A stretch of 64,000 bases of DNA from Plumapathes pennacea (lineage: Eukaryota; Cnidaria; Anthozoa; Antipatharia; Myriopathidae), in NCBI GenBank assembly GCA_964036295.1, contig OZ038469.1:2836501-2900500 (forward strand), in the 5' to 3' direction. This document shows, in pieces, positions 12,590 to 59,089 of this stretch. The number at the start of each line of letters is the position of its first letter. Position 1 is the stretch's first letter. The translations under genes and the position numbers were made by a program. The notes under the pieces are model-generated. The model saw only the letters and a program-made list of their open reading frames with translations. It did not search any database and was not told the origin of the DNA.

Positions 12590-13927
12590 TGTCTGAGAAC
12601 AGGTGTTCATGTCTTGATATCAAGGCTATAACTTCACTTCGGCTTGGATTTACGAGTCAGTATATAACTGCTCATATCAAACGCAGCAACTCAGTCGACA
12701 GATACAGGTAAAATATATCTTATTTTTATCAGTTTCTTTAAACAGGCGAGTGTCACAAGGATAACGCTGAGTCGGTTCGAAACCCGCTGATGACCTGATA
12801 CATTTTCTGGACAATCGACGCACGAAGAACGTTTGCTTCATGTTTCTCTGCCATGCCTATCACCGAGTTTTTTTTTTTAATTTTTTACTTTTTCTATCTT
12901 TCACCAGAAATCCCACGGCCACAGATCAACGGCGAAGCAAAGCATTATGACGGAAACAAGTTCGCTCGCTAATTTGACATCAGGCCACAGAAATGTGACC
13001 CGCACAACACAGCAACAAGACTCGATGTTCTGCCCTCCTCACTCGAGAGCTGCTATTGAGATGGTTGGAACTTCCATTCCGTATATTGTGAACGCCGTTT
13101 TAAACATCCTAATGACCGTCCCTACAACGCTCGCAAACGTTCTGATTCTCATAGCGATGCGTCGCATCACCTCCATCCGTTTACCGTCCAAGCTTCTGCT
13201 CTGCTCTCTTGTGCTGAGTGATCTTAGTGCGGATTTAGTGGCTCAACCTCAACTCGTCGTGCTTCTTTTAATGATAGCAAACAAATCTTACAGTGCGAGG
13301 TTTTTCTTGGCAGAATCGATTTATGTCACTGCAGCTATTCTATCCTGTGCTTCGTTGTTCACGATAACAGGTCTGAGCCTGGATCGGTTCATTACACTCC
13401 ACTTTCACCTCAGATATCACGAGATTGTAACAACCAGGCGAGTTTGTGCATTCCTTGCTTTCATCTGGTCGTTTTCATTATTTTTTGCATCGTCATATCT
13501 CTGGAACAGGGTACTGTATTATGTTATTACGATGAGTGGTATTTTTAATACTTTCCTCATCATTCCTGTCGTCTATATCAAGATATACCGCAGTTTGCGA
13601 AGTCAACACGGCCATCAGCTTCAACCTCAAGCCCACGTCCAAGCTCAACAACAGGCAGGAAAAACACTCAAAATGTCCAGGTACAAAAAATCAGCATCTG
13701 CCATGCTGTGGGTCTACGTACTTTTTATCATCTGTTACCTGCCTTATTTTTCAATGTATGTAATCACAGCAGCCGTTGGGTGCACGCCTTTGATTCATTG
13801 TATTCATGAATTCTCCTACACTTTAGTGCTACTGAATTCGTGCGTAAACCCGTTCGTGTACTGTTTTCGGCTACGCGAAATCCGGACAGAAGTTATGAAG
13901 AAAGTGCGCCAAATATGTCGTCAGTGA
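12590..13927 (+). CDS. Class A (rhodopsin-like) GPCR, copy 2; coding part 12947-13927
   Basis: Tandem paralogue of the receptor at 8297-9277, offset by exactly 4650 bp at the start codon and of the same length (326 residues). The non-coding exon (to ATACAG/GTAAAA near 12710), the intron and the TTTCACCAG acceptor near 12906 are conserved. Motifs: N-terminal NLT and NVT sites, LCSLVLSDL (TM2), GLSLDRF (TM3), CYLPYF (TM6), NPFVYCF (TM7). It likewise lacks the TM3-ECL2 disulfide cysteines and keeps two ECL3 cysteines (GCTPLIHC). Changes from copy 1 cluster in TM2-TM3 and TM5 (for example AGLAVQP against ADLVAQP), which could alter ligand choice. Both copies look intact, so two working receptors are likely. 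Confidence 0.9.
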
Positions 13928-24429: not shown

Positions 24430-27290
24430 CTAATGGGCGCTTTGGTCTTCAATTTCACCCAGTTCCCATGGTTCCAAGGCAGTCACCAGGCCCACCACAC
24501 TAATTTTGCTGTCTTCTGGGCCCAATGAGCTGGCTTTCGTTGGAACTGTTGCTTGTTCTAGCATCAATTTGATTAATTCTGGAAGGAAAAATACGATGAT
24601 AATACTGGGACGATGTTATTTGTTATATTATGTTATTTGAACCAAACCTAACGCATTTTTCATGTGTCTCTCACAGCACGTATAAAACCTCTTTCTTACT
24701 AGTTTAGTATTTCCATTAGGGCACCCCCCCCCCCCCCCCCCCCCCCTCCCAAACTCCTTCAACGCATTTCCCTACGGAATTAACAGAAGAGTTGCCGACC
24801 AATCACGAACGCTGACAGTAGACTTAAAACCTTGTCGGAGGGCATCGCAAAAAATAACGGAGTCGGATTTATCGGCTGTTTTCGACGTATACAATTTTTA
24901 GGATATCACAAGAATATTGCTCCGTAGAAGAACTGAATACGTTCATGAAATCAAAAAACCAAAAATCTTACCATTTACATTCACAATGCCGTCTCCATCT
25001 TTGTCTGCGGCTAAAAGCATCTTTTTCGTCTCATCTTCGGTAAATTTCTCCCCCATATTCATCATGATATGCTTTAACTGCTCTGTAGATATGAACCCGT
25101 TTTTATCTTCGTCAAACACCGTGAATGCTTCTTTCAGGTCTTCCTCAAAATCGATGTCTTTCAACATCAAACTCACGAACTCGCTGAGGTCAATCGCTTT
25201 GTTTCCTTGAAGGCAAGATACAAATACCAAACAATCAAATATACAATTGCTTCTTTCTAATTGGTCATAACGCAATTATGTGGAAACAAGTTTGGCGCTC
25301 AGCAGAGAGATTTATTTGACAACTCGTTTATACAGGGGAAAGTAAAAACAAAGTGTTACTTGCTACTGTGCATGGTTTGTGAAAGCGGCTAGTGCTATCA
25401 GAAATATATGTATAAATAGCCAATCGAATCAGATAGTCAATATGTTGACGAAAAACTGGCTTGCTTGACAACCGCTGACCGCTGATCTTCTCAAAGGCCA
25501 GAAAAGCTGATTTTAATCAGCACTGGAAACAAAGAGTTAACTATTTTCTCACTTACCGTTTAGATCCACTTCACTGATCATTTCCACAAGCTCTTGTTCC
25601 GTTGGTTTCAGACCAACGGATTCCATGAAAGTGCCCAGCTCTTTAGCCGAGATAAATCCGTTTCCATCTGTGTCAAAAACTGAGAAGGCCTCCCTGATCT
25701 CTACGAAGCAGCAGAAAAAAACAACAACAAATAAACAACAACAAATAAACAACAATAAATAAACAACAATAACAACAAAAATTAGAACAATGTAATGTAT
25801 GCTGTAAAACTTTAAAAGTGACAATTTGCACCATGTACCATACTAACCTTCTAGCTCTTCCTTGGACAATTTTTCCTGCAGTAATAAGAAATTTAAAACA
25901 GCACTGAAGAATTGACGGTAATAAATATACTTACAGCACAGTAGTCTACTGACTTCTCGAATTGATAAATACATCACTGGGTCAAGTTGTAGACAGATGG
26001 CACTCTACGTTGAGAGACCTTTCTCTGAAGAAATTTGACACACAGCTTTGTAGGTAGCCGCCACGTTGGCTGCGTGACTCAGCTCTCGTCCGAATTCAAC
26101 AAATTAACAAGGGTTAATTAATTCAATCGCACTTGTACACTTGTAATTTAATGTGTATTTTATTTTAAAAGTTGCACTTACAAGTCCAGGGAAGATATTG
26201 TAGATGCATAGAGTCTATTTGCCCGAACGATTACGTATTTTGACGTGTCGTGAAATTAATCCAACTGGTAAAATGAACTACATTTATAATAGACCCCTTC
26301 ACGGCTTTCGATGCATGAGGGGTAATCAATTGAAGCTCCCGTTAGCAGACACCCTTTGGAAACAGAAAAAGTTTCCGTAACTGGAACTGTCCGCTTACGA
26401 GAATGTGTAAATACAGAGTTTTACTGAGCTAGAGTTTAAACTGTCTGCTTACAAAGTGTCCACCCAGAGAGCTTTGACTGTAGAGTGTTCTTGCCTTGAT
26501 TACCGCATCATGTGATCGAATTTTCCACACAATTGTACTATCCCATAATGTTTCTAGTAAAAATATACACAAACAGCTTGAGCGCCCGCTATAAAATTTA
26601 GGCGGAGTTGAACTCGATATGTATGGAAGCACAACATACGCCTCGCTTTTGTCAAACAAAAGGCGATCGATATATTGTGTCAGTGTTTTGATTCAACTGT
26701 AAAACAGACTATATTCGCATGAGGCTTCAGAAGGTGACCCAGACGACTACAAACTCAATTTTACATGCAGTGGGATGAGGCAATTTTGTAAACACCACAG
26801 TTCACAGACGATCAAACGTCAGGAATTTCAAGCACAAGTGAGCCTTGCACAGCCGATAAACAGCAGGGAATCCTTGCACCGCGTGTTTCATGTCACTAAG
26901 ACTACTGAACAATTATGACTATTAAATAAAGGTGTTGGGCACTGAACTTCTTCAGGGAAATCTAAACTTTGATTTTTGGTTCTGTAAGTGAGTCAATCTC
27001 CCCTTCGGCGGACCGATAATGGCACTGGGGATGAAGAGTCATGTTGATGCTAGCCGTCACCGGACCTACTCATAAAGTGGCAACGAAGCTATTTCTGAAA
27101 GAAGTAATTTATTTACTGCTTAGAATGTCAGCATTACGAATTGGAAAGAACGCGACAGAATCAGATCCTTGCGTAGGTGCAACGCTTGAGGGATCACGGA
27201 GTTCTGTGCCTTTAAATGCTCACGGACATATTTTGGCGGTGATAAAGCTACGGCGAACAAACTAGTATCCTTAACTGTTCCACTTACCAT
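24430..27290 (-). CDS. Calmodulin-like EF-hand protein (array gene 1)
   Basis: Four-EF-hand calcium sensor of 185 residues built from five exons: 27290-27288 (the ATG alone), 25875-25848, 25700-25557, 25205-24972 and 24578-24430. All borders are GT/AG and phases match. An intron directly after the initiator ATG is a known feature of metazoan calmodulin genes. EF1 [12 protein letters not shown] is canonical. EF2 [12 protein letters not shown] lacks the central Gly. EF3 [12 protein letters not shown] has Gln in place of the last Glu. EF4 [12 protein letters not shown] is canonical. A C-terminal extension of about 45 residues rich in Ser, Glu and Leu follows EF4 and is absent from calmodulin. 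Likely a cytosolic sensor; partner unknown. The single-codon first exon is the least certain part. Confidence 0.85.
24724..24746. repeat. Poly-C tract
   Basis: About 23 consecutive C in an intron of EF-hand gene 1. Several similar G or C homopolymers (about 11776, 29829, 35307, 38753, 50327) are spread over the window. Confidence 0.9.
26330..26490. repeat. Diverged pogo/Tigger-like fragment
   Basis: Pieces such as AACTGTCCGCTTACGAGAA, TGTCTGCTTACAAAGTGTCC and GAGAGCTTTGACTGTAG recall the ends of the element at 39643-39833. It lies in intron 1 of EF-hand gene 1. Confidence 0.5.
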
Positions 27291-28413
27291 GTTGTAAGTC
27301 AAGCAGTGCGTACTGACTGTGCTGGCTCAGCAATCGTACCACTCTCGAAGCAAATAGAAACCACCAGAAACACAGTTGGCAATAATTGATTCAAATTTGA
27401 GAACATTTACCAATATCCACACGGGGCTATTTTTATGTCTGCGGGCACGCGGGACGCCCTTGACTGAATAAGAACAATAGTATGTCATTCCTAAATTTGC
27501 TTTCCCAACACAATTAAAATTACGAAAACAACTATAGAATTATTTAACGGGGGACTAGAATATCGATCACGGAACATTGACACGTCATTTATCGAAATGT
27601 ACTAAACAAATATAACTGAATCCCTAGTCAGGGATTCACGGAACTCGTGTGCAACTCACATGACAAATTGACAAACTGAACACCGTTACAAAACAAACAA
27701 ACAAACAAACAAACAAAAAATGAATTTGGGAGTTGTGAAATCTGTTGGGAAGTTTTAAGTGGGGAAGAGGTGGAAGGAATTGTCAACGGATGATGCGTGA
27801 CGGAGGGGGAAGGGGTGGGAAGAAATTTGTCTTCACAGGGAAAGTTGAACGAAGTATAAAAAGAAATCAAATTAATTTGAGAACTCGAGTGTATTAAAAA
27901 TGCCCTGTTTTCTATTCAAGAGTATTGAAAAGAGGATTAACTCTCGAATATCTCCTTTGCATTCTTTACGGCGTTTCATTTTAGCGTGAGTTCATCAAGT
28001 TTGGGTTTAGTTGCACTATAATCCATCGGTTAACACAATGCATGCTGGGAACTGTTTAGTCCAGTTGTGATCGGAGGTTCTTAACCTGTTTTAAACCGGT
28101 TTGAAAAGTGAATTAGTAGAATTGTGCGTCTACGTCTTCTAGTAAATCCCATGTTAACGTATTGAAGCACTATTTATTTAAAACTCGATCGCTTTATTAC
28201 ACGAAGCTTTTACATATAAGCAAAGTTATTCTTACTGATACAAACGTTATACAATACTGAATGTAAATAGCGGTACGTAGATTTCTTAGCAACTTTGGGC
28301 AATACAGATGCTACTGAGACGTCACAGCTAAACACAAAATAGCGAGAACTATCGGGGTCAGTTGACCAAATATGGTGAACTTCCCAGTGCTTCGGTGCTG
28401 CTCATGACACGTC

Positions 28414-30971
<2,558 letters not shown>

Positions 30972-36394: not shown

Positions 36395-36400
36395 TTTATT
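36395..36400 (-). terminator. Candidate polyadenylation signal of the modular gene
   Basis: AATAAA on the minus strand, about 330 bp after the stop codon at 36731. It is the first canonical hexamer noticed downstream; cleavage site not verified. Confidence 0.45.
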
Positions 36401-36730: not shown

Positions 36731-37483
36731 CTACATGCCATCTGGTTCTGGCATACAGGGCCCCTTTGAGGTAGGTGTGGTTGGTGAGACAGTAAAAGGC
36801 GCATTCCCCGGCAAGACGAACTGTATGTCTGGGAGGTGTTTTGTCTTGAAGTCGCCTGACATTTTCTTGCCTTCTTTTGCAGTGGTTGTTGTGTCGGGCG
36901 CGCTGCTTATTTTGCGCTTGCCCTAACAAAACGAGGAAGAGATTGGTAAAACACAAATAAATAAATTACAGATTCGAAACACTTTTATCGCTAAGACCAC
37001 TAAGGGCCCGGTCACTATCTCCCATACAGTGGCACAATGCCCGGGTCGTTTACAGCCTCCCGTCAAACTGCTTTCCTTGTATTTGCATCTTGTTCAGTTT
37101 TAGAAAATCCCTGGTCGTGCCACGCTTCAAAAATCAAATTTGAGAGCTTAGCTGCCGCGCCTGGAGGTCGCGCGCCACTAACGGACATTAATATTCATGA
37201 CTGCATCACGATTAGTAACCTCGCAGGGCTCGGTGAACATTTTACTATTTATGCTGATCGACGAGTTTTAAAATACTGAACTTACCCGCAGTCTGTAAAC
37301 CAGGAATGCTGCAGCCACAAGCACAACAGCCAGACAAGCCCCGATGGCGATGCCTTCTGTGAAATTCTTGGAGCCATTTTCCGCCGGCGGGGCCTCTGTT
37401 TGCTCGACAATTGTCAGCTCAACAATACCGTTAGCTTTGTATTCTTGATCGCCCATTGCCACGGTAAAGTTCTGTGCTTTTGC
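36731..37483 (-). CDS. Exons: SEA C-part, transmembrane helix and cytoplasmic tail of modular protein
   Basis: The exon at 37483-37286 encodes the end of the SEA-like domain, a short Pro/Glu stretch (EQTEAPPAENGS), then one hydrophobic helix (AIGACLAVVLVAAAFLVY) with a basic stop-transfer (RLRGKRK). The exon at 36922-36731 encodes a tail with Thr-rich patches and ends PCMPEPDGM. This gives a type I topology. Confidence 0.82.
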
Positions 37484-40400
37484 CTACAAAATCATCGAAT
37501 AATAGACCATGATTTTATCTGTTACATAATTAAGAATTATGAAATGCACGCCGTGTTTAGCCTTTACACAAAATTTCGAGTTCTCCTAAACTCACTCGAG
37601 TGTTTGCATCAGGCTATGCTTTTTATATGCATCACTGTTGATCTGCCCAAAACAACTAAAGTCAGTGGACTTTATGGTCTATTTAATGATATTTTTTGTA
37701 GTTTACTTTCGTTGTTATACCTCGTTCGCAATTTGTTCGGCCACCTCCTCCACTGTTCCTTCATCATCTGGCGAAGATTCAATTTCAAAGTCCACTTTGA
37801 TGCTTCCCGCTGATAACTAAGTTAGAAACGTTAGAACAACCTTAGTACAAGATTGACCCATCAAAATACGAATTCTCCTATCTTTTTAAAAAGGAAACGT
37901 AGGAGTGATGTTGTGAGAATTGATAGCTCAATCAGCTGTCATGTGAGGAAGCTGCTGCATATAAACACATTTTCCTTGCTGCTTTTTGAAGATAAAGAGA
38001 AACATAAAAGGACATATTATACAGAGAAATATGAGGCATTAGAGACTTGCCTATAACCCTTTGACTCCAAAGAGTGATCATTTTCAATTTTCAAGGTTTT
38101 CTACAAGGTAACGCAATAAGACTTTCACTTTCACCTTGATGTTCTTGACCCGTTCCCTTGGTATATTATACTTTCTCTCCAGTGTTATTAGTAGTGCCCT
38201 AACAACCGAACAAAACAATTTAGTCAGTTATTTTTTACGCGTAAGATATTTTTTCTAATCCCAGATCAGCCTTACGCAACGATGTGAATACATATGTCGT
38301 ATAGTATGTTGCAATCATCATTGTAATCATCATCACCATCATCATTACTAGCTATTTCTGCATTAATACCCCTTGCAAAACTTCCAAGATGATTTACATA
38401 CTCTTCAAGCTCCGGCAAACGCTTCTTGACGTCTTCAAATTTTCCTGCCAGGTGAACCACAAGCCTGAAATGAACGAAGAGATATTCAGTTAAATGTCAA
38501 CCTTTTAGACAACTGGTGTAGAGCAGCTCTAGAGGCCCAAACCAAAGCAATTACATCGCCAATCACAGAGGTTGTAAGAAAAGGAATAAATTCACATCCT
38601 ATATTACCTCGCCCTCCGCCTCTTGGTCTTGCGACTTGATTTTTGTCTCCGTCCCGCTACATTGAGAATCGAATAACTGTGTTAGACACGCTACCCGAAG
38701 CCGGGGGAGGAGGTGGGGGTGGGGATTCCCTGAAATGGCACTTCCTGTCACTCCCCCCCCCCCCCCCCCCCCCCCCCCGAACTCCCATCTCCCCGCCACA
38801 GGAAAAGAAAATTTGGCGGGACTGAAACATCTTATGTCAGAATTGAAGTGCATCTGACTTTTCAACTTTCTTGATTATTATAAAAATGTGGAATTTGTAC
38901 TTTAACTTTGTTTAGGCTTCCAGCAGACAGATTTAACGAGACTAGCCCCGATCTTCAAAACGTTTTGAGTACAAACTCTTATAACTTTTACAAATACTGG
39001 TACCGACAGTATGGGCCCAACGTGGAAATCGCAATTAGTTATCGCGAACAAGCGTTTTATGCCTAATTGCGTAACTATATTTTTGATTTTGCAAGCTGAG
39101 AATTCACAGAGATAACGGGAAATACTTTAACGACACTCACAATTTTCGTCCTTCTTCTTTTTGTTGTTTCTTATCTTGGGGGTTGTTCGTGAAGGCATTT
39201 CCGAGAAATCTTCTGCGCTTGAAGGTGAACCTAAAGAAGAAAAGAAAATACAATTATCGCTGATTAAGATAGAAACTAAAGAAAGTTTAGACTTCAACAG
39301 GTGAGGTTAGCCTGTAAAAAAATTTCTTAATAAATGCTTCTTTTCCTGCATGAGTCTTGTAGACTCTTGTCAAACTGGTTGAAGAATTCTTACTCGTACA
39401 TTACCTTAGAACAATCTACCGGCTAATCTACGTACAGCTCCTGATACAAAGACATTCATAAGGATGCTTACTAAAGTGGAGCTCACCCAGATTTATACAT
39501 TCCGTGACTTTGCAGCATACGTACAGCTACTACATGGCTTGTGTAAATTATAGCTCCAGTGAAACGTAGGATAATTTTCATCACCGAATAATTAGAATAG
39601 ATTTAAAATTTTTAATTGTTATTACTCTTACAATTGTTATACAGTCAACTCTCTCTGAGCGAACACCTCTCTAAAGCGGACGCCTCTCTAAGGCGGACAG
39701 CATGCAGATTTGGTCCTTGCCGATTTTCACTTGTTTCTCTGTAACAGAACTCTCTATAAGGCAGACACCTCTCTAAGGCGGACACTAAATCTAGTCCCGA
39801 GGGTGTCCGCCTTAGAGAGAGTTGACTGTACATCAGGTTTTAGCTAGTAGATTCTGAGACACATGAGCGTGAGTCCCTGACTCCAAGGCGTTTTGTGTTT
39901 AAATAAACGATTGATCAATAAATTGATTGATTAATTGGCGCGCCAACACGTAACTTTCGCCGCACTGTTCTTGTAATCAAGAACTTGATGGGCACTTTTT
40001 GTGTTATACTAACCCTTCTTCAAACAGTTTCTGGGTCTTTTCCCCATGGTTTGCGTGTTCTCTTTCAATCGGCCGTATCTGTCGACACACCAGCACATCC
40101 CAGACGTTTGGTTGCACTGAATCTCCTCAAACTCGCCTTCAGGTGAACAGGTTGGAATATACACGCCAAGATTGGAGAAACTAAGAATCAGAGAGTTAAG
40201 ATTTATTAAAGGAAGTCACAAGATGCAACGGTGTATCCCTGAAGTACTCAAAATGTGTAGCATAAGACTTCGATCTGGTGATATAAATATTGAGGATTTG
40301 TACATGCAAATAACGGTCTTTTACAGAATAATTTCACTGGGATAGCTTTCGACTAGTACACTATACCTTGAAGCAGTAAGACCTTGATTAGCTCCTCCAC

Positions 40401-43400
40401 CTTGATGATTGCCTTGTCCACCTTGTCCTTGATTGGCTCGTCCTCCTTGTCCGCCTTGTCCTTGATTGGCTTGTCCGCCTTGTCCTTGATTGGCTCGTCC
40501 ACCTTGTCCGCCTTGTCCTTGATTGGCTCGTCCACCTTGTCCACCTTGTCCTTGATTGGCTCGTCCTCCTTGTCCACCTTGTCCTTGATTGGCTCGTCCT
40601 CCTTGTCCGCCTTGTCCTTGATTGGCTCGTCCACCTTGTCCACCTTGTCCTTGATTGGCTCGTCCTCCTTGTCCACCTTGTCCTTGATTGGCTCGTCCTC
40701 CTTGTCCGCCTTGTCCTTGACTGGCTCGTCTACCTTGTCCGCCTTGCCCTTGATTGGCTCGTCCACCTTGTCCACCTTGTCCTTGATTGGCTCGTCCACC
40801 TTGTCCGCCTTGCCCTTGATTGCCTCGTCCACCTTGTCCTTGATTGGCTTGTCCACCTTGCCCTTGATTGGCTCGTCCACCTTGTCCGCCTTGCCCTTGA
40901 TTGCCTCGTCCACCTTGTCCTTGATTGGCTTGTCCACCTTGTCCTTGATTGGCTTGTCCACCTTGCCCTTGATTGGCTTGTCCGCCTTGTCCGTGATTGG
41001 GTCGTCCACCTTGTCCATGTTTGGCTTGCCTGCCTTTTGCTGTAAATATGTCGACCAAAACTGATACTGCTGGTGGATTGCCTTGGTTGAGCAGTTGATA
41101 TTTCTTTCTGTATTCTCCAATGGCATTCCGCTGCCGCTTTTGACAGATGGTTACTAAACATAAACAACAAAAGCAATTTTATAAAATGCTCGAAGACGAA
41201 CAACGTATCAACATAACGTGGTCAAGAATGTAAGAATGTACACCAGAGAGCGGTATTGGAATAAGCAATTACTTCAATGTCTATCGTTTGTTTGTTGTTC
41301 AGTACTTAAGCCACGCTCACACCTAAAAACTATTTCGGATAAAAATTTTCCGCATTCAAAGCTCTCACTTTCGATTCCGGATGCCATTTCTCTCCGGAAT
41401 CAAAGAAAATGACTCAATTTACGTTTTCACGGATTTAGAAACAAAACGTCTCGAATCCAGATGAATTCGCCCAAGTGTAAACGAGGTGTAAAGCAGTATC
41501 CCAGACCAGGATGCTGACTTTATCTGACAAAGGTAAGATTGACATTTTCACCGTAAGGCATTGGACTTATTTATGTAGTTCTTACATGCAGAGCAGTTGA
41601 TTTTCTGCTTGTTCTTGTCGTAGAACACAGGTTTGCATCCGGAGCATGGATTCATAATGCACTTCGCTTTCGGTCTACTGGGACACCTGGCACGCTTGCA
41701 TGAATCATAGAGACAAGCTACGGCCTCTTTTCCTTTTGGGCAGTCTGAGGACGAGGAGAAATAATTTAAATAATTTATTATTATACTTAAAAGTTTCTAC
41801 TTTGGTGGGAGATAATGCTGTTTAAAAGATACCATAGTCGGTTGTGAATTTCTTCGATGGCTCTTTGTGAATGTCTGAACCTTATAGGACTGCATTTTAC
41901 TCTGAGCATATCTGATCGATGGAAATGTACATTAATCTACATAGACAATAAAGTTTGCCATAGCATTGTTTCTTAGAATTTTAAGACCGACACAAGAGAT
42001 TTTCATACTCAGTGACCATGAATTTTTACACGTAATAACAGTATAATATTAGCGTTAGCATTTTATTGAAGGGAATTACCTTGTCTACGTCTGTTACGTC
42101 TTCGTTACGCTTGTTGTTAGATTTTCGGTATTGGTCACTTAAATAACTGAATAACTTACCTATTTTACAGTCAACTTTAGTCCCATTGCGATCGTAAAAT
42201 TCGGCGGCGCACTTTCCGCAGTAGTTCATACGGCATCGCGCATGCGGATGAGCAGGACAGCTAGAACTGGGGCAAGCGTCGTACAAACACATCTTGAAGT
42301 CTTGTCCTTTTGGACACACTGAGTAAAAAAAGGTTTTACAAATTCTCCTAACTATTCAAGAATATAACGTATCTTTTGATATGGCGAGAATTAATAGACC
42401 AATCAGCTTTCATTTGAGTGAACTATCAAGTGGCAAATTCTCCATACTGTATGATATATCTCTGGTTAGAGATTGAAGGAGAAAATTGAAGTTGATCACT
42501 CTTGGAGATGTCAGTTTCCTCTTTCAGTCTCTCACCAGAGACATATCACACAGTATGGAGAACTTGGCTTTTGAAAACTCATGTAACAGGTGATTGTAGT
42601 GTCAATTCTCACTACATCACTCATACATTTTTCTATTGAATGGCGGGGAGAATCTGCATGATAAACTTGGGATTGAAAGGATTAGGCTCGGGGAGACTGG
42701 ACACTTAATTTTCGTCCACTGCGTTTGTAGTTATACTTTCGTCTGGCCTTTCAAAGCGGCACTGTTTCCCTTGATGCTTTGCGTGACGATGTTTATGTTA
42801 TCGTCCGGGTGTTTTACAGATCATCAGTGATTTTCTATTATATATATATATATATATGGCTGTAAATTTGAGTTACCTGGTTGGACTGGAAGCTTACAAG
42901 TCCTGCCGCATCCAATCATACAGCACTTCCGGTCTTTGGCGCAATCGGCGTCCGAGGAGCATTTGGAAGGACACGTGACATTCGAAGCAGGCATCACTGG
43001 GCACAACCCAGGTTTAACTGAAGGAAAGAAGAACTCTCAGATAGTATAACAGGAAAATTTTTGGAAAAATATAAGCAAAATGCTTTTTATTAAACAATCA
43101 CAGAAGAGATGCGCATTGGAGACGCGATTCTAACTCACAACAAATCGAGGATCGAAACCCTCGCTTTGCTATAAAGTCAAACTTGTTTTTCCCTTTATTT
43201 CCTTTAATTTAAGGTTTGTATCCACTTCTCTTCGCTTTTACTGTAGCAAATAACGACATGTCGACCGCTGTGGACATCTGACATTCGAGGTTCAAGGAAG
43301 GGACGTGGAGTTTATGTGATTTGCTTTTGAAAAAAAAATAAAAATAATAAAAAACCGTCGATTTGGTGTCTCAATAATTTTTGTCTAAGATTGCACCTTA

Positions 43401-46400
43401 TGCTGCCGGACGTACATTTAGCCTGATTGATGTCTGCAAAATACAGTAACACATGCTTACCAGTAGGAGGGGGAGGGGTCGGTTTCTTCCGAGGTTCAAC
43501 GCATGTCTTCCCACAAGGCATCTGGCAACAAACTTTAGAGGCGTCGCAGTCCTTGCTGCTTGAGCACGGTTGTGCGCATATGCTGAACGAGTCTGCAGGT
43601 ACCCGCGGACATTGGTTGTCTGTTGGTTGAAGTAAATCAGCACAAACTCAGAACGTGTATTGAATACGGCAAGCAACGACAGTCAGATCAATCAGTCATA
43701 ACGTGGGCGCCTCAGGAAAGTCGAGCTCCAGATGTAAATATAAACATGGGCGCGCAAAGCATCTACGGTGAGAGGGTCTTTTTAAGACGGACACCTCTCT
43801 TAAACGGAAAGTTTGAGATGGTCCCGATAATGCCCGTAGTAAAATGGGAAGTTCACTGTAATACAGAACAATTTCAACAAGATTTAAGTTTTATTTAATT
43901 TATTTATTTAAGTACTATTAGCTACTGCGTATGAGGGTGAACGTGGGCTATTATGTCCAAAGTGTTTTCTCATAATAATCAGATTTGACTAAACTTTAGT
44001 TTATAGGGTGAGTGTAGTGAATGTGGCTGTGGTCGTGCGTGGAAAGGAATTGGAGTAATGAATGAATGAATGTTCCATCTGTTAGAAACCAAATCACTAA
44101 CCAGAACTATTTTTATTTAATTTGTTGTCCTTACCAGCTGTCTTGCAGTTCGGACGTCCTTTCGTTATTGTGTTTGCCTTCCTTTGGCCCTTGCCGTTGA
44201 CGCACCAACAAAAGTTTCTTTTTGAATTACACCGCACTTCGTCGAAACTCCCACTAGGCGAACATGTCGGTACGAAGAGTCTATTGGCTTTTCTACGAAG
44301 GCTGGCAGCTTTTCTGAGAAACCAGAACATCTTCATAGGGCAACTGGTGACGACGTAGACGGTGCTGTTACCCGATCTCCTCGTGAAGCTGCGAACTCGC
44401 GTGGCATTGCTTGAAGTTTCACTGAGGGCGACGGCCGAGTTGTTCAGTTGTTTAGCTTTTTCCAAGAGCCCCTCTATCACGTCTAGTGTTTGCAGGCGTC
44501 GTCTCTGACACTCAGTCAAAACTGTGATTAGAAAAGGGCGTTTGATAAATAAAGCATAGTATACTAAATTGAATATTGAGTTCTCGAATTCAATAATTCA
44601 TTATTATATTAGCCAATTAATGCATCGCATTTAGTCAAGTGGATGGGTTTTGAAACAGCGTCAAACACTGGTTTGAGCGATTAAAGATGTAGCAGAATGT
44701 CTATGCGCACCTACTTGCATGGTACCTATGATTTAACATATCAACAGCATTAGCAAGAAAAAAGATTCATTTCATACATGAATGCAATTTTCGTAGAAAC
44801 CAAAGGAAGCCTTGTCAGTAGCGCTACTCGCTTCAGTTAGTAGCAGCAGCTTCGTGTTAGACTAATATAGTGCACAGCTTCAGCCTTTCTTACCAGATCC
44901 ATTGCCATTGCAGGAATCGAGCGGACCCTTTTGTCTGGTGGCATTCCTCTCTCGGCCATACTCGTCAACGCACCAGCATTTGCCCGTTGGACGATAACAT
45001 TGGACAGCAGTAAAGCTGCCGTCTGGATTACATTGCGGCACAAACTGGGGGACCAAGGTCTTCTTGATCCATTTCTTGACTCGACGTCGTTGAGTCTCGC
45101 AGCGAGACAAACCTTAGAAAAAAAAAAAAAAAAGAAAATGACGCCGAGTGTAAAAAGTACAGTTTGATTGATTACTTATGCAATGTTTTGAGTGGTTAGG
45201 AGAATCTGTATCATAAACTCCCAAAAGTGATCAACTTCGGTTTTCTCCTTCAGTTTCTCACCAGAAATATATCATACAGTAAGGAGAACTTGGCTTTTGA
45301 TACCTTGCTCATACTACAGCAGATTGAACTATCAATTCTCACTACATCACTCATACATTTTCTTCTAAAAAGGTTGGGAGAATCTGTATTTTGAACTTGG
45401 GAGTGAGAGGGTTAACAAACCTCTGGCGCAGTCAACATGTTGGGCGTTTTCGTCGTAGAACGCGGGTGCACACGTTCCGCACGGATTGATTCGACACGTG
45501 GCGTTCATATTCCCTCGGCATTTCACCAGTGAGCAAAGAAACGCCGGGCAATTTGCCATCATAGGTTTGTCCTTCGGACACACTGCAATGTGAACACAAT
45601 AAAGACATTTAGTCCCTCTTTTCTTGCTTGTTTTGAACCCACTCTTCAATTTGAAAGGACCAAAATCCATAACCGACATTCTAAAAGCAAAATTTAAATG
45701 AAACGACGCGTTTCATAATTTCTAAATGCAGGAGCTTTTCAACTGCAATCCTGGCCAAAAGTATGTGGAACACTCTGAAAACTTGTTATGTTTTCACCAC
45801 CACTCCTTGTTGAACAACGAAAGCGGCTCCTGTTTCCGAAACTTAGTCCTCCCCCCCATACAATGTTGCCTAAAGGGAGTGCACTTTGAGCACATTCATT
45901 CAACATTGTAAGGGGGGAGGGGGGGCGGGAAGAGGGAAAGTGTCATAATTTTTAATTAAAAGGCTAAGTGTCCCACGACTTTTGGCCAGGATTGTGGTAT
46001 TGTACTGCTGTTGGAGTACTGTTGTTAGTAGCAGTGAGACTATAGAGCTGTTTTCGGATGACTGTCGAAAGTAATCGTGTGATTGCTTTGGTTTTGCGTT
46101 TGCTTCGCTTTCTGATTGGTCCACACAAGTTTGGCAGCCTTCTCAACCAATCAGGAACAAAACCAAAACCAAAACCAAACACTTCTCACGCAAGCGATGG
46201 CGTGTACTCGCATTACTGATTGGAAAGTAAAACCAAACGCAAGACCGAACGTGAATTACTTTGGCTTCTGATTGGCTGAACTGTTTTCTCTCAGTCTCTG
46301 TGATTGGCCTGTGTGATTACTTTGGTTTTGGTTTTCGACAGTCATCCGAAAACGGCTCTATGTGAAACGTGGTGACTTTAGTTATTTACCAGGTAAAGTG

Positions 46401-46707
46401 ATTGTTCGATTAGTGTTCTTAGCAGCAATGTGCTTCTATCTAAGACGTGGTGAGTTAGTTACTTACCAGAGGGTGGGATGAAGTTGGGATTTTTGTAAGG
46501 ATCGCAGGGACGTCCTCTGTGTTTTTGGTTATCTGGGCGGGAGTGTTTGTTATGAGGCAAGTGTCTGCGACTGCTAACGTTCCTGGCCCTTTCATTTTGG
46601 ACATCGGCTGCAGGTCCTCCATCAAGTACGCCAGAAGAAACAACATCATCGTTACTATTACCATCATCATCATCATCATTATCACCATCATCATCATCAT
46701 CATCATT

Positions 46708-46805
<98 letters not shown>

Positions 46806-49800
46806 TGTCATCATCTTCATCATCATTATCATCATCATCATCAATAGAGTCATCACTATCATCATCATTATCAATGGAGTCATAATCATCAATGGAGTCA
46901 TCATCAACAATGGAGTCATCTTCATTATCATTATCACCACCATCATCATCATCATCATCATCATCGTCATCGTCAATAGAGTCATCACCGTTATCATCAT
47001 AAACCCCTTCAGCACTGTCATAGTGAGAATCGTCACTGGATGTTTCACAAGGAGTCCCATCCTCATCAAATTCAATGTAATGTTCGATGGTGTCATAAAA
47101 ATCTTGTTTACCTTCATATGAAAGAAAACAAAAACGCTAAATAAACAAAAAACAAACATAAATCTATACAGTAGAAGTGTAAACAGAACTATAGGAAGTT
47201 ATAATTAACATCTGGTTAGTATTCACACTGATCGTAAGCACGGTTATATATATTTTTATACAGATAATACTAATGATAGCTCCAATTACGATAAAAACGG
47301 TATTGGCACGGTAGCTTCAAAATGATTTTAATTTTGTTATAGTTACAATAATACTACTCTTATGATGGCACATTTATTCGCAGAAATTGCTCTTTAACCA
47401 TACTACTGTTGCTGAATAGCTTACCTCTCCTGCAGGTGTACTTCACTCGAAGAGAATGTACAATTTCCTTGCAGTCCTTTCCAGCGATACATAACGACAA
47501 TGTACAGCGGTGTTTCCCCTGGCAACGTCTCCTAACTGTGGCTACTGCTCGAGTTGTATTGCATTTCACATCATCCTGGCTAGTGGTGTTGGTATTATTA
47601 TGAACGTGATGGCCACAGGATGAGCGGCTAAATGTCACCTTCCTGAGAGCAAGAATCTTTTTGAGACCACAGTTTATTACTTTGGGTCTTCTTTGGCACA
47701 CGATTGCTGTCTTCAACTCTACAAAAGAATTAAATAAACACAAGTTGCACTATTAGAAATGAGTGCTTGACAAAAACATTAAATTAGTGACGTTTACTCG
47801 GAATGTTGGTTGGCGTTCTCTTCAAAGTAAAACAAATTTATGCAGATACATTTAGTCAGAAAAATCGACTTACTTTTGCTTAGTCGACACTGCGGTTGCA
47901 GTTTAGTCAAGCTGTTATTTATCATTCGTCCGTTCGTTTCATTCGCCACCCAAGATAGCCCAATTGCTGGCCATGTCTGACGACACATATACGAACCGTC
48001 CCAGTCGCACCGAGGAACAAAGGTTGCTATGGCAATACCCCAATGGCTTTTTGGCTGGTGTCGCTTACTTATGGCATGCACCCTATCTTGGTGACACCTT
48101 CGGGCCTTGTGTGGTGAACACCTGGATTTTTGCAGTCGCTTTCGCCCTTCTTGTGCTCGGCCTCCTTGTTGTTTATCTCCTTGGTTGAAATCTTGCTGAA
48201 CTCGTTGCTGTTGCCCTCCTTGGTGTTGTCCTTGTCGCTGTTGGCCTCCTTGGTTCTGACCTTGTTGCTGTTGGCCTCCTTGATGGGGCCCTCCATGGTG
48301 TTGTCCTCCTTGGTTCTGACCTTTCTGCTGTTGGCCTCCTTGCTGTTGCCCTCCTTGGTTCTGGCCTTGTTGCTGTTGGCCTCCTTGGTGGGGCCCTCCT
48401 TGGTTCTGACCTTGTCGCTGTTGTCCTCCCTGGTGAGGTCTTCCGTGCTGTTGGCCTCCTTGGTGAGGTCCTCCTTGTTGTTGCCCTCCTTGGTTCTGAC
48501 CTTGTTGCTGTTGTCCTCCCTGGTGAGGTCCTCCTTGCTGTTGGCCTCCTTGGTTTTGACCTTGTTGCTGTTGCCCTCCTTGGTGGGGCCCTCCTTGGTT
48601 CTGACCTTGCTGCTGTTGTCCTCCCTGGTGAGGTCCTCCTTGCTGTTGGCCTCCTTGGTGAGGTCCTCCTTGCTGTTGGCCTCCTTGGTGGGGTCCTCCT
48701 TGTTGTTGGCCTCCTTGGTTTTGACCTTGTTGCTGTTGGCCTCCTTGCTGTTGGCCTCCTTGCTGCTGTTGGCCTCCTTGGCTCTGACTTTGTCGCTGTT
48801 GTCCTCCCTGGTGAGGTCCTCCTTGCTGTTGGCCTCCTTGGTGGGGTCCTCCTTGTTGTTGGCCTCCTTGGTTTTGACCTTGTTGCTGTTGGCCTCCTTG
48901 CTGTTGGCCTCCTTGCTGCTGTTGGCCTCCTTGGCTCTGACTTTGTCGCTGTTGTCCTCCCTGGTGAGGTCCTCCTTGCTGTTGACCTCCTTGCTGCTGT
49001 TGTCCACCTTGGTGAGATCCTCTTTGCTGTTGGCCTCCTTGGTTCTGACCTTGTTGCTGGTGGCCTGCACATAAGTAGAAATTAATGTAGCAAAATTATG
49101 CGTCATACATAGATGGGGAAAAACGTAACGCCATATTACGTCATGCATTTGACATTGCGGACGCACAATTAACCAGCAGATTTGATCACATGACTCGTAA
49201 AGCAACCAGCGGCATGAAAGTTTGTGACTTGAGTTGATTTTAAACCTGTTAAGACCGGTTTTCTTTAATTGATTCGTCCAAACAGAGTATGCCGAGGTCC
49301 CTTTCTCATCGGAACCTCTGTTTAGCACAGTATAGCTACCGTGGATTTATTTTTGAAACATCGGAGTGTAAAGCAGAAGTCATTGAAGGTATTGGGTTTA
49401 ACCCTTTCACTCCCAAGCTCAAAATGCAGATTCTCCCAACCTTCTAAGGAGAAAATGTATGAGTCATGTTGCGAGAATTGATAGTTTAATCAGCTTTCAT
49501 CAGAACAAGGTATCAAATGTCAAGTTCTCCTTACTGTAAGACATATTTCTGGTGAGAAACTGAAGGAGAAAATTGATCTTGATCACTCTTGGGAGTGAAA
49601 TGGTTAAGAGTTTCCGCTGGTTAAACGTGATATGGGATTTTTGTAGCTTGAAGTCACGTGACTCAAAATCTATCACGTGACGGGTTTTAATCCCTGACTG
49701 AACTTTTTCCATACAACTCTATCTAATTGTTTCTGAATTCCGCCAAATTTGATGTTTTAATGCTACTGACCTGAAAATGTTCCTTTTTACGTATTTGTTT

Positions 49801-50783
49801 TATGCTCGCCTTTACCTGGCACTCAAAAAGCCATAAATAGCGTTTGGATAACCACCAAATTGTATTGAGTGAAACTTAAACGCGCAAAATATAGAAATAG
49901 AAAGACAGATTAGTCATAATTTCAGTGAGAGAAAATTCACAATGTCTGTATATGAATAGAAAGATTAAAGAGACTTTCTACCAGGTGCTTCATTCTTGTA
50001 AATGTCACAGGACTGGTACAACGCAAGTCAACCACAAATTGGGAAAGCTGAGAAGACAAACGAAGAAATGGGATATTATAATACCCCTTTGTTTCACGGA
50101 GCATGTCCTGTGTGTTATAGGAATGTTGTTACATATCTTTTCGAATAAACACCTGCATGACGCCAGCAGCCACCCGTAAGAAGTTTTCAAAACAATCCCA
50201 ACAAGGAAACGCGTTTAATTCAACAAGGAATTCCATCGAAATGAAATATTCGCCGCGCAGACAGAAGGCAAGAAAGAAATATGACTACAATTGTATTCTC
50301 TGTGTACCATGCAGAATACAAATACCCCCCCCCCCCCTCCCTCCTCTCCCACCTCACTTCACCCCCTTCAGGTACTCCGCGGAACATTTGGTCAGGATGT
50401 GTCGCAAGGCTGTCAAAATCATAATCGTACTTTTCAGGCCAAAATAATGCGATTTTCCATAACCCAAACTTTGTAGCCCGTATTTGTTGTCATATCAAAA
50501 TCACATCATATCCAAGACCACAAGACAAACTATAATCCTACTTTAAACTAAAATGTTTTAAGATGACATGCATCCTCCCCAAACAAATAAAGAAATTAAT
50601 TTTTTTTTTTTTTTGAAACTCTTTATGATTTTGCACTGGAATTTCGAGTAAACGGGACGATTTCGTTACTTTCGACACGAAGGCTTTGGTACTCAACAAG
50701 GACCACACAGAAAACTTACAAAAGCTGTGGAAAAGTAAGTGAAGCGCGACAGCTTGTGAACCTGCTCCCCCAAAAGGCTTCAT
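36731..50783 (-). CDS. Large modular membrane-anchored ECM-type protein (QG-rich, Tg1, SUEL lectin, Asp-rich, WAP, SEA-like, TM)
   Basis: Minus-strand gene: 19 in-phase exons, 49064-47874, 47718-47425, 47111-46467, 45582-45421, 45112-44894, 44521-44135, 43619-43461, 43017-42877, 42318-42160, 41744-41586, 41153-40367, 40180-40014, 39230-39141, 38656-38608, 38464-38402, 38198-38135, 37816-37721, 37483-37286 and 36922-36731. Candidate first exon 50783-50720 (weak signal peptide, AVALHLLFHSF core) fits the phase and gives 1,761 residues. Order: Q/G repeat; degenerate Tg1; SUEL lectin; Asp-rich; Cys module; Tg1; Tg1; WAP; WAP; Cys module x2; Tg1 split by an N/Q/G repeat; basic linker; SEA-like; one TM helix; 70-residue tail ending PCMPEPDGM. 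Stop TAG at 36733. Likely a surface or shed matrix protein; a biomineralisation role is inference. All ectodomain introns up to exon 10 are phase 1, the sign of exon shuffling. Could be two genes, but unbroken phase argues for one. Confidence 0.8.
37721..38464 (-). CDS. Exons: SEA-like domain with GSIKV cleavage-type motif
   Basis: Three small exons (38464-38402, 38198-38135, 37816-37721) encode an alpha/beta unit: LVVHLAGKFEDVKKRLPE, ITLERKYNIPRERVKN, then LSAGSIKVDFEIE. G-S-I-K-V in a hydrophobic strand before an acidic loop is the pattern of SEA autoproteolysis sites (G/S break), and the position next to a membrane helix fits. The next exon completes the domain. Family assignment is by pattern only. 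Confidence 0.65.
37858..38100. mobile_element. Broken family A element
   Basis: Left part (CGAATTCTCCTATC, GAGAATTGATAGCTCAATCA) and a separated end (AACCCTTTGACTCCAAAGAG at about 38055) are split by unrelated sequence. It lies in an intron of the modular gene. Confidence 0.5.
38608..39230 (-). CDS. Exons: polybasic linker of modular protein
   Basis: Two short exons (39230-39141 and 38656-38608) encode a Ser/Lys/Arg-rich linker: NNKKKKDEN, then QKSSRKTKRRRARR just before the SEA-like domain. RRAR and RARR fit the furin-type R-x-K/R-R pattern. The second exon is only 49 bp and is supported by matched phases on both sides. Confidence 0.7.
38753..38778. repeat. Poly-C tract
   Basis: About 25 C in an intron of the modular gene, between the two basic-linker exons. 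Confidence 0.9.
39643..39833. mobile_element. Pogo/Tigger-like MITE
   Basis: ACAGTCAACTCTCTCTGAGC at the left and TTAGAGAGAGTTGACTGTA at the right are inverted ends flanked by TA, with internal CTCTCTAAGGCGGACA repeats. About 190 bp, in an intron of the modular gene. Related fragments: 7030-7095, 26330-26490, 29899-29950, 43769-43862. Confidence 0.8.
40014..41153 (-). CDS. Exons: Tg1 domain split by an Asn/Gln/Gly-rich repeat
   Basis: The exon at 41153-40367 starts ICQKRQRNAIGEYRKKYQ, the first-Cys helix of a thyroglobulin type-1 domain, then runs into about 200 residues of an 11-residue repeat (GQGGQGGRANQ, 33 bp units). After a phase 2 intron, the exon at 40180-40014 supplies the rest of the domain: YIPTCSPEGEFEEIQC, MCWCVDRYG and RPRNC. 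The frame is fixed by both Tg1 halves and by splice phase. Two other minus-strand frames (Lys/Asp-rich and Arg/Ser-rich) are open but do not join the flanking exons as domains. Confidence 0.82.
41586..42318 (-). CDS. Exons: two unnamed six/seven-Cys modules
   Basis: Exons 42318-42160 and 41744-41586 (each 159 bp, phase 1-1) encode paired copies of CPKGxxxxxCLYDxC, then a CP-rich spacer, then NxCxxCxxxFYDxN, then C. Copy 1 has CRMNYCGKCAAEFYDRNGTK and copy 2 has MNPCSGCKPVFYDKNKQ. A third copy is the exon at 45582-45421. The pattern is conserved with the Cys spacing kept, so it is a real disulfide module. I do not recognise a named family with certainty. Confidence 0.75.
42340..42686. mobile_element. 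Two family A elements in opposite orientation (palindrome)
   Basis: About 42340-42510 reads in one orientation (GAGAATTAATAG to TTGATCACTCTTGG) and about 42515-42686 in the other (TTCAGTCTCTCACCAGAGAC to AACTTGGGATTGAAAGG), giving a fold-back of about 345 bp in the intron between a WAP exon and a Cys-module exon. Confidence 0.7.
42877..43619 (-). CDS. Exons: two WAP (four-disulfide core) domains
   Basis: The exon at 43619-43461 (CPRVPADSFSICAQPC, KDCDASKVCCQMPCGKTC) ends in a Pro-rich hinge (KKPTPPPPTG). The exon at 43017-42877 reads CPVMPASNVTCPSKC, then DADCAKDRKCCMIGCGRTC. Both have the CC pair and the C-xxx-C end of WAP domains, a fold often used to inhibit serine proteases or as an antimicrobial. 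The intron between them is phase 1. Confidence 0.88.
43769..43862. repeat. Pogo-like fragment
   Basis: AAGACGGACACCTCTCTTAA and GGAAGTTCACTGTAATA resemble the ends of the element at 39643-39833. Intronic in the modular gene. Confidence 0.5.
44135..45112 (-). CDS. Exons: two thyroglobulin type-1 domains
   Basis: The exon at 45112-44894 is a canonical Tg1: C-E-T-Q-R-R-R helix, FVPQCNPDGSFTAVQC, GKCWCVDEYGRE and final DSC. The exon at 44521-44135 is a longer Tg1: ECQRRRLQTLDVIEGLLEKA, then an unusually long insertion with NSTV and NATR glycosylation sites and basic WFLRKAASLRRKANRLFVP, then TCSPSGSFDEVRC, FCWCVNGKG and PNC. CWCV is the family signature. Tg1 domains commonly inhibit cysteine proteases or bind growth factors; which applies here is unknown. 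Confidence 0.9.
45210..45420. mobile_element. Family A element abutting a splice donor
   Basis: From ATAAACTCCCAAAAGTGATC to GGGAGTGAGAGGGTTAAC. Its right end falls within about 6 bp of the 3' border of the Cys-module exon (45421), so part of the donor GTTTGTTAACCC comes from the element. Confidence 0.75.
45421..45582 (-). CDS. Exon: unnamed Cys module, copy nearest the N-terminus
   Basis: 162 bp, phase 1-1. Pattern: CPKDKPMMANCPAFLC, then KCRGNMNATCRINPCGTC, then APAFYDENAQHVDC. Same Cys spacing as the modules at 42318-42160 and 41744-41586. The NATC site could be glycosylated. Confidence 0.8.
46041..46364. mobile_element. MITE with TAGAGC ends
   Basis: TAGAGCTGTTTTCGGATGAC at the left and GTCATCCGAAAACGGCTCTA at the right are inverted ends; the interior carries several CCAATCA/TGATTGG pieces. 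About 320 bp in the intron before the Asp-rich exon's downstream neighbour. Non-coding. Confidence 0.8.
46467..47111 (-). CDS. Exon: Asp-rich acidic domain of modular protein
   Basis: 645 bp, phase 1-1, open throughout in the frame set by both neighbours. It starts GKQDFYDTIEHYIEFDEDG, passes into long Asp runs (one of about 18 consecutive Asp) broken by Ser-Ile (DDSIDD, DSIVDDDSID), Gly and Asn, and leaves through a basic tail (RHLPHNKHSRPDNQKHRGRP). By count nearly half of the 214 residues are Asp. Such stretches bind calcium weakly and in bulk. It superficially looks like an ATC microsatellite. Splice sites: acceptor ATGAAG/GT and donor CTG/GTAAGT. Translation in vivo is unproven. Confidence 0.78.
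47425..47718 (-). CDS. Exon: SUEL / rhamnose-galactose-binding lectin domain
   Basis: 294 bp, phase 1-1. Signs of a SUEL-type lectin: an N-terminal VCQRRPKVINCG strand, a central Cys (SRSSCGH), then the core CNTTRAVATVRRRCQGKHRC, and the closing LRVKYTC. The family usually binds L-rhamnose or D-galactose in extracellular lectins and latrophilin-like receptors. The YGR and DPC sugar-contact motifs of classical members are not evident, so sugar binding is uncertain. Confidence 0.82.
47874..49064 (-). CDS. Exon: Gln/Gly-rich repeat followed by degenerate Tg1 domain
   Basis: 1191 bp, 2 nt then 396 codons then 1 nt. The true frame is the Q/G frame (repeats such as QGGQQQQGQN and QGGPHQGGQQQ, about 280 residues), because it runs without stop into a Tg1-like unit: RCHQDRVHAISKRH, ATFVPRCDWDGSYMC, then SWV and PQC. 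The CWCV signature is reduced to LSWV, so a disulfide is lost. Other frames (Lys/Glu/Asn-rich, Arg/Pro/Thr-rich) are also open but end outside the exon. Acceptor TGTGCAG/GC; donor AAAA/GTAAGT. Confidence 0.8.
49398..49607. mobile_element. Family A element, best-preserved copy
   Basis: From AACCCTTTCACTCCCAAG to CTTGGGAGTGAAATGGTTAA, about 210 bp with matching inverted ends of about 18 bp. A good reference copy for the family in this window. Confidence 0.85.
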
Positions 50784-58074: not shown

Positions 58075-59089
58075 TTATTCGTTGCTAAGTCGCTTCAGAC
58101 AAGAAATAAGCTCATCCACGGTGGGCCGATCAGTTGACACTTTGCTGCGATGAATCAGGGCCACGTTGCCATGGCAATCGATGACGAAGTCCCCGCCCAT
58201 TTGGGTGGGGTCATCGTTTTCGTACAGCTCTACCAGCTTCCGGCCTGCGCGCTTTTGTTCGGCGTAGTAAATCAAAGCAGAAGTGTTCCAAACTTCAGCC
58301 ACAGATTTTTTTAGGCCAAATGCCTTGTACAGTTTCCTTTCCGGGTCCACGAACATTTTGAACTGACAATCGGTTTCTTTGAGCCATTTCTTGGCTCCAC
58401 GCTGAGAAAAAAAAAAAGAAAAAAAGCAAGAACCAATTAAAGGAGAAATTAAAATGTAATGCCCAAAAGGGACTTTCACTCTTTTGAAAGACTTTCACGT
58501 CAAACGCTTAATTCCGAAGTTTCGTTTTAAAATATGGGCTTTATTTATGGATCTATGAATTTTTTTTATACATTTTCTTCAGCAACAAGACGACGTACTT
58601 ACGATTTGTGTTGGCACGAGGTCGGAAAGCATTTTAGGCGCGCCTTATCACGATGAAATAGCTCCCAGTTATTTCTATAATCTGACTCACAAGAATGGAA
58701 ATGCGTTTTTGTGAAAATTGAAAAGTTCAAGCTTGAGAGAAGGGCTAACGCTCGGAACAACAGCTCAGACTTCCTGACGGCGTCCAGTTTGATTCACCCA
58801 TCGATCTTTAGTGGATTCATGATAGAGCTTTTTCCATGCCGACCCAGTTAAAACTAGTCCTCCAAAGTTCTATCTCTCCATTGTGAAGAGTTCAAGTTTC
58901 CCTGCACTTGAATCTGATTGTTTTGGCTTGAAGTACCATGTGATTTATGGAGTACCACGTGGTTTATGAAGTAGCACGTGGTATATTGACACAGTACTCC
59001 ACTCACCTCATCTCCAAAGCTGATTACAATCACGTGACCATTCAGCAGCTCCAGATCCTTCCTCCTAGCCTGGACCTGGGCCACATGGT
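58075..59089 (-). CDS. AhpC/TSA-like (peroxiredoxin-like, thioredoxin-fold) protein, 3' end only
   Basis: Two exons, 59089-59007 and 58401-58075, join in phase 0 to give DHVAQVQARRKDLELL, HVIVISFGDE, RGAKKWLKET, then VDPERKLYKAFGL, and QMGGDFVIDCHGNVALIH before the stop. This is the C-terminal two-thirds of an AhpC/TSA-type thioredoxin fold, as in peroxiredoxin-like 2 and bacterial peroxiredoxin-like proteins. The phase (G from an upstream exon completing D before HVAQ) shows that at least one earlier exon exists; it should carry the N-terminal Cys motif and was not found in the window. A short exon at about 58640-58611 (MLSDLVPTQI) could also join the last exon in phase as an alternative start. 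Likely a redox enzyme; substrate unknown. Confidence 0.78.

Follow-up and report, generated by a model that had tools for sequence, protein, structure and literature searches.

The question raised by this locus is whether a long series of exons that places low-complexity tracts, extracellular modules and a membrane anchor in a row constitutes one gene and, if so, what kind of protein it encodes. The series lies on the minus strand of a 64,000-nt stretch of Plumapathes pennacea DNA (Antipatharia; contig OZ038469.1; C8:2836501-2900500, hereafter the window), within a 290-Mb genome of 24 contigs. In the original prediction, made from the sequence alone, it was described as one mosaic surface protein of about 1,760 residues, encoded without a stop by 19 exons and a candidate first exon. 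The analysis presented here bears this out. With a confidence slightly better than even, we regard the product as a single-pass type I surface protein of corals and their kin, probably epithelial, whose ectodomain would be held and released at a switch formed by a thyroglobulin type-1 (Tg1) domain and a SEA domain.

Structure of the gene

The chain was rebuilt in silico by joining 20 minus-strand exons (E1-E20; 19 exons plus the candidate first exon) from position 50783 to 36734, followed by a stop codon at 36733-36731. The joined sequence comprises 5286 nt including the stop and encodes 1761 residues, with no internal stops. All 19 introns have GT-AG borders; the splice-site landmarks were chosen by eye on the sequence, and these borders follow from that choice. 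Exons E2-E12 are entered in phase 1, and E2-E11 both enter and leave in this phase; phase-1 exon borders are usual for shuffled extracellular modules. An AATAAA polyadenylation signal is located 330 nt downstream of the stop. From the N to the C terminus, the encoded modules are a Gln/Gly-rich (Q/G) tract, a degenerate Tg1, a SUEL-like module, an Asp-rich linker, an eight-cysteine (8-Cys) module, two Tg1, two WAP and two further 8-Cys modules, a Tg1 split by a second Q/G tract, the SEA domain, a transmembrane (TM) helix and a tail. The features, in window positions, are as follows.

50720-50783, minus strand: E1, candidate first exon with a putative signal peptide (MKPFGGAGSQAVALHLLFHSFC); GTAAGT donor; weak
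47874-49064, minus strand: E2, Q/G tract (residues 23-330), then a degenerate Tg1-1 (about 47887-48096); chain, Pfam, repeat analysis, ortholog alignment
47425-47718, minus strand: E3, divergent SUEL/rhamnose-binding-lectin-like module; Pfam below cut-off, profile match to solved lectins
46467-47111, minus strand: E4, acidic linker with 97 Asp and 8 Glu in 215 residues; chain, composition
45421-45582, minus strand: E5, 8-Cys module 1; motif comparison
44894-45112, minus strand: E6, Tg1-2; Pfam, 61.9 bits
44135-44521, minus strand: E7, Tg1-3, with a long stretch separating the first Cys from the core; Pfam, 52.6 bits over profile positions 9-67 of 67
43461-43619, minus strand: E8, WAP-1; Pfam
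42877-43017, minus strand: E9, WAP-2; Pfam
42160-42318, minus strand: E10, 8-Cys module 2; motif comparison
41586-41744, minus strand: E11, 8-Cys module 3, without counterpart in the relatives P0003 and P0006 (see below); motif comparison
40367-41153, minus strand: E12, first part of Tg1-4, then the second Gly/Gln-rich tract (about 40414-41004); chain, repeat analysis
40014-40180, minus strand: E13, remainder of Tg1-4; Pfam, 55.1 bits over profile positions 20-65 of 67
38608-39230, minus strand: E14 (39141-39230) and E15 (38608-38656), basic linker, net charge +11 in 45 residues; chain, composition
37286-38464, minus strand: E16-E19 (38402-38464, 38135-38198, 37721-37816, 37286-37483), predicted SEA domain; ortholog structure model, introns common with a paralog
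about 37289-37354, minus strand: putative TM helix, assigned by eye within the E16-E19 region
37793-37807, minus strand: Gly-Ser-Ile-Lys-Val in the SEA turn from strand 2 to strand 3, candidate self-cleavage site; alignment, model, motif literature
36731-36922, minus strand: E20, predicted cytoplasmic tail and TAG stop; chain
36395-36400, minus strand: AATAAA polyadenylation signal; sequence

The same chain in other animals

Protein searches, which had been proposed as a check, led first to P0003 and through it to P0006, both with the same module order. The query was a composite of the non-repetitive parts of the chain. The composite of these parts matched five proteins at E ≤ 0.001 among 6971 candidates, including P0003, a predicted protein of 1179 aa (source 'lgn', 71 member sequences). 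With P0003 as the query, six proteins (itself included) were obtained among 7940, the next being P0006, LOC144634818 of the stony coral Oculina patagonica. A profile of the three orthologs gave nine proteins; one was P0006 and the other eight were thyroglobulins, other Tg1/WAP proteins or unnamed. Such protein searches miss true relatives, since P0006 escaped the composite, and P0003 and the proteins P0001 and P0002 (see below) escaped the three-ortholog profile; a missing match is accordingly no sign that other cnidarians lack the gene.

P0003 and P0006 are 35% and 38% identical, respectively, to the window composite. Both run from a degenerate Tg1-1 through a SUEL-like module, an acidic linker, an 8-Cys module, two Tg1, WAP, a further 8-Cys module and a Tg1 with a Gly-rich insert to SEA, TM and tail. 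In contrast to the window gene, each lacks one 8-Cys module. In P0003 only the second WAP is present, and the N-terminal tract is enriched in G, R, H and P; P0006 lacks the N terminus, beginning inside Tg1-1, and its first WAP contains six of the eight Cys. The tails of the window protein (36734-36922), P0003 and P0006 share the pattern Gln-Phe/Tyr-x-x-Pro (QFVLP, QYVMP and QYTIP, respectively).

Because this order recurs in P0006 and P0003 with small losses only, the chain reads as one gene and not as a join of two. The domain order had been expected to be lineage-specific; its presence in Oculina and in the source of P0003 means that it is not unique to this animal. No described protein with this order was found in the literature searched, which consisted mostly of papers available without subscription, in agreement with the original prediction.

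The chain also has weaker points. The gene model was derived from genomic sequence alone, and E1, although it has a GTAAGT donor, is one of three candidates left by a crude filter. A His follows immediately after its junction, as one does after the signal-peptide-like stretch in P0003, which is suggestive only. E4 contains a second open frame, a second frame of E12 is interrupted by one stop, and the E2 tract also lies inside open frames of other minus-strand frames (e.g. 48069-49346). As alternative frames are open, the reading frame there was taken from phase, flanks and orthologs. The genomic origin of the model and the weak first exon would suit an artefact, in which two adjacent genes were wrongly combined or the assembly is in error. 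However, the exon phases agree, and P0003 and P0006 are single predicted proteins spanning Tg1-1 to the tail (P0006 from inside Tg1-1). An artefact is therefore very improbable, and it was ruled out on the strength of these two proteins, which repeat the chain.

The Tg1-SEA-TM cassette

In the window gene a Tg1 unit is followed by a SEA-like domain, a TM helix and a tail, with the 45-residue basic linker separating Tg1 from SEA; models of the Oculina and Pocillopora relatives support this fold. That a SEA fold adjoins the TM helix is predicted from the model of the Oculina ortholog's domain, to which the window sequence is 28% identical. Nine pieces of the protein, none of them from a Q/G tract or the acidic exon, went into a Pfam scan. 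This family scan, of a kind also suggested beforehand, placed Tg1 and WAP above their cut-offs and SUEL (25.6 bits, cut-off 31.4) below. No Pfam family was above cut-off for the window SEA part. The profile FAZ1_cons (20 of 27.5 bits; two of six members, best E 4.9e-5) was taken as a chance match.

In nine of ten sequences the motif GSIxV occupies the turn that links SEA strands 2 and 3, the exception being P0003 (GGIKV). According to two papers (PMC6954182, PMC7349879), mucin-type and receptor SEA domains carry a self-cleavage site, GSVVV or GSIVA, at the same turn. A membrane-near SEA fold and a turn of GSxxV type are likewise features of cell-surface mucins and other SEA proteins (MUC1, MUC16, dystroglycan). 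The window gene differs from these in the absence of a Ser/Thr-rich mucin tract and in having Tg1 as the neighbour of SEA.

The vertebrate proteins EpCAM and Trop-2 share the succession of Tg1, SEA-like domain, TM and tail, and their structures were matched by the orthologous or related cassette. In the structural SEA match the identity was 7%. A search with SEA alone gave no EpCAM at E ≤ 10, while a profile of Tg1 plus SEA met EpCAM in one stretch (E 6.6e-6). The EpCAM-type N-terminal domain was not listed among the Pfam matches of the nine pieces, the presence of its model in the library being unconfirmed. EpCAM, unlike the window protein, has a single Tg1, which follows an N-terminal domain of its own and precedes the SEA-like domain; its Tyr250-Tyr251 lies near the spot of the MUC1 self-cut (PMC7349879). 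Membership in the EpCAM/Trop-2 (TACSTD) family is not claimed, given four Tg1 units versus one, and the relation is kept as a likeness. By analogy, the protein may function in the manner of EpCAM/Trop-2 or of a surface protein with a mucin-type SEA domain, although it carries four Tg1 units and its far part is different. In PMC6586460, SEA-like domains were assayed together with a neighbouring domain as proteolytic switches, and Trop2 gave a moderate ligand-dependent signal.

A releasable surface coat is proposed on the basis of the conserved GSIxV turn, which corresponds to the known SEA self-cleavage site, and of this Trop2 switch assay. The far part of the protein (Q/G tract, degenerate Tg1, SUEL-like module, acidic linker and the 8-Cys, Tg1 and WAP modules) would form a long coat, rich in disulfides and basic for the most part, with a single strongly acidic segment and possibly with binding functions. 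The near part is the Tg1-SEA-TM cassette, EpCAM/Trop-2-like in build. The SEA domain would retain the ectodomain on the cell and could be cut at the GS turn, either autocatalytically or through a protease. Once cut, it may let go under pull, or when the contact with the neighbouring Tg1 opens, with release of the coat into mucus, matrix or the subepithelial space.

Two gene types with a common cassette

A second type of protein shares the cassette. Pocillopora verrucosa 'thyroglobulin-like' isoform X2 (P0001), Stylophora LOC111327458 (P0002) and a paralog in the P. pennacea genome (C8:2113068-2130431, about 0.74 Mb away) consist of WAP, 8-Cys and Tg1 modules and end in Tg1-SEA-TM, with GSIVV at the turn in the paralog. 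In this type, unlike in the window protein, no SUEL, acidic or Q/G parts were seen; ten Tg1 units were counted by motif in P0001 and nine in P0002. In a tree of ten SEA-TM stretches, the window sequence grouped with P0003 and P0006 (99/96), and the paralog with the Pocillopora and Stylophora proteins (95/94). Three SEA intron positions are identical in the window gene and the paralog, and a fourth is about two residues off. Both gene types thus coexist in this genome; they may have arisen by duplication on this chromosome.

The cassette was also found outside the cnidarians. Isoform X2 of LOC144448627 (P0007) of the acorn worm Glandiceps talaboti has WAP, Tg1 and 8-Cys modules and ends in Tg1-SEA-TM with GSIIV. 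It differs from the window protein in its other Cys-rich parts, and no SUEL or Q/G tract was seen in it by eye. Related SEA-TM stretches with GSIIV occur in the P. pennacea genome at C2:22850181, C2:22894393 and C2:23079325. The second of these comes after long Ala/Ser/Pro-rich repeats, within an open frame listed at 1144 aa, 690 aa of which were covered here, and is mucin-like.

Modules of the far part

The Tg1, WAP, SUEL-like, acidic, Q/G and SEA-like parts named in the original prediction were all recovered. It had not named the three 8-Cys modules, the EpCAM/Trop-2 likeness of Tg1-SEA-TM, the conserved GSIxV turn or the degeneracy of SUEL and Tg1-1.

Four units exceeded the Pfam cut-off for Tg1 of 20.6 bits (26.9 bits at the end of E2; E6, E7 and E13 as listed above), and by this cut-off the window protein belongs to the thyroglobulin type-1 domain superfamily. 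In Tg1-1, GLSW replaces the CWCV of the other units; the change reads as an old loss, since the window protein, P0003 and P0006 are all alike in it. WAP was above cut-off in E8-E9 (62.7 bits, two stretches), with eight Cys apiece by eye. Elsewhere in the genome, two dense Tg1 arrays (C3:9053898-9114945 and C3:17864284-17882106) account for about 73 of 100 listed Tg1 places, the list being a minimum.

Four Tg1 and two WAP modules would suit a membrane-bound multivalent protease inhibitor, acting at the cell surface against cysteine cathepsins (Tg1) and serine proteases (WAP). Inhibition of cysteine cathepsins is reported for the Tg1 domains of several proteins (PMC7349879), and Tg1-repeat proteins of Nematostella are classed among protease inhibitors (PMC12549020). 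Against this stand the missing CWC cysteines of Tg1-1 in all three orthologs, the long inserts in Tg1-3 and Tg1-4, the single WAP of P0003 and the incomplete first WAP of Oculina; moreover, inhibition would not account for the SUEL-like module or for the acidic and Q/G stretches. As the main function, inhibition appears rather unlikely; as an additional role of the Tg1 and WAP modules, it is to be considered seriously.

A profile built from the three orthologous SUEL stretches matched solved rhamnose-binding lectins (E 1.4e-17), and E3 likely has their fold. In rhamnose-binding lectins a DPCxGxxKYL stretch has a role in sugar binding. This stretch, present in the lectin rows of the profile alignment, is not kept in the window protein (KDCKEIVHSL) or the orthologs (KAC, SAC). 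Sugar binding by E3 is doubtful because these letters are not conserved, and a working lectin was rejected as unsupported, the Pfam score also being under cut-off. A search of the genome with the window SUEL module returned itself and one weak place (E 0.049).

The 8-Cys module, present in E5, E10 and E11, was also recognized by motif in P0001, P0002, the acorn worm P0007, the crustacean proteins P0005 and P0008 and the scallop protein P0009. In the piece scan no Pfam family was found for E5 or E10-E11 at E ≤ 1, and a profile of 16 members gave weak unrelated Pfam matches only. Comparison with PDB sequences yielded no matches at E ≤ 5, and NCBIfam, used on two pieces, gave none for the first and weak unrelated matches only for the second. 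A lone module at C9:208235-208387 is about half identical to E10. Three modules lie on the plus strand of C6:130299-138168, with a Gly-rich frame containing MEGG/LKGG-like repeats at about 145 kb.

Low-complexity tracts

In the Q/G tract of E2, 217 of 328 mismatches between repeat copies fell on the third codon position, and in that of E12 116 of 207 did (counts over overlapping pairs, which are not independent events); translation of the chosen frame would be expected to produce this pattern. For the Asp tract the figure was 114 of 558, the differences lying mostly at codon positions 1 and 2. GAT accounts for 75 of the 83 Asp codons of the Asp run, and (ATG)7 has 44,860 overlapping matches genome-wide versus 4,177 for the reversed pattern. 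Recent, microsatellite-driven repeat growth is the probable source of this long run of pure Asp. E2 contains a 153-bp unit in 2.3 copies with a 98% match, and for this reason the length of its tract is likely to vary between individuals.

These observations bear on the idea that the low-complexity stretches are functionless repeat expansions in an otherwise ordinary Tg1/WAP surface protein. The almost pure GAT composition of the Asp tract, the positions at which its copies differ, the recent age implied by the 153-bp unit and the different kind of N-terminal sequence in P0003 all fit it. On the other hand, the Q/G copies differ chiefly at third positions, and both the acidic linker and the Gly-rich insert in the last Tg1 hold their place and general character in the window protein, P0003 and P0006. 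We regard such expansion as a real possibility, albeit not the one that we would back.

The linker occupies the same place in all three proteins and its acidic character is common to them, with Asp and Glu making up 105 of 215 residues in the window protein (49%), 36 of 120 in P0003 and 45 of 142 in P0006 (30-32%). Its position is thus kept in Oculina, a stony coral, as might be expected of a skeletal organic matrix protein whose Asp-rich linker binds calcium and which is shed into the calcifying space. In the agrin-like section of a Corallium rubrum skeletome study (PMC7853314), a figure legend lists TY and WAP among its domain labels, whichever protein carries them. However, with Asp codons mostly GAT in a genome rich in (ATG)n, the length of the Asp run need not reflect a mineral-binding function, and the linkers of P0003 and P0006 are less acidic than that of the window protein. 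A skeletal matrix role is therefore considered improbable.

Other genes in the window

Two similar single-frame genes of rhodopsin-type G protein-coupled receptors, probably a tandem duplicate (likeness by eye), are located at 8135-9277 and 12881-13927. The minus strand carries MFS transporter pieces (961-1728 and 18947-20652), EF-hand (calmodulin-like) exons (24943-29406), where a long (GAT)n repeat occupies about 28.5-29.0 kb, and an exon of AhpC/TSA antioxidant type (58075-58494).

Significance of the cassette

We tentatively propose, at somewhat less than an even chance, that the Tg1-SEA-TM cassette is an ancient animal proteolytic switch that predates the cnidarian-bilaterian split and is not a vertebrate invention. 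Corals and their kin would have added to it a lectin-like, polyacidic and Q/G-rich coat, giving rise to a releasable surface-coat protein. The occurrence of Tg1-SEA-TM in corals and an acorn worm provides a concrete candidate for the origin of the membrane part of EpCAM, and the Notch-chimera shedding assay described in PMC6586460 could be used to probe the cassette as a switch. For corals, the gene supplies a named surface protein whose shedding could take acidic and Q/G-rich material away from the cell, which would be a possible route of membrane proteins to mucus or skeleton.

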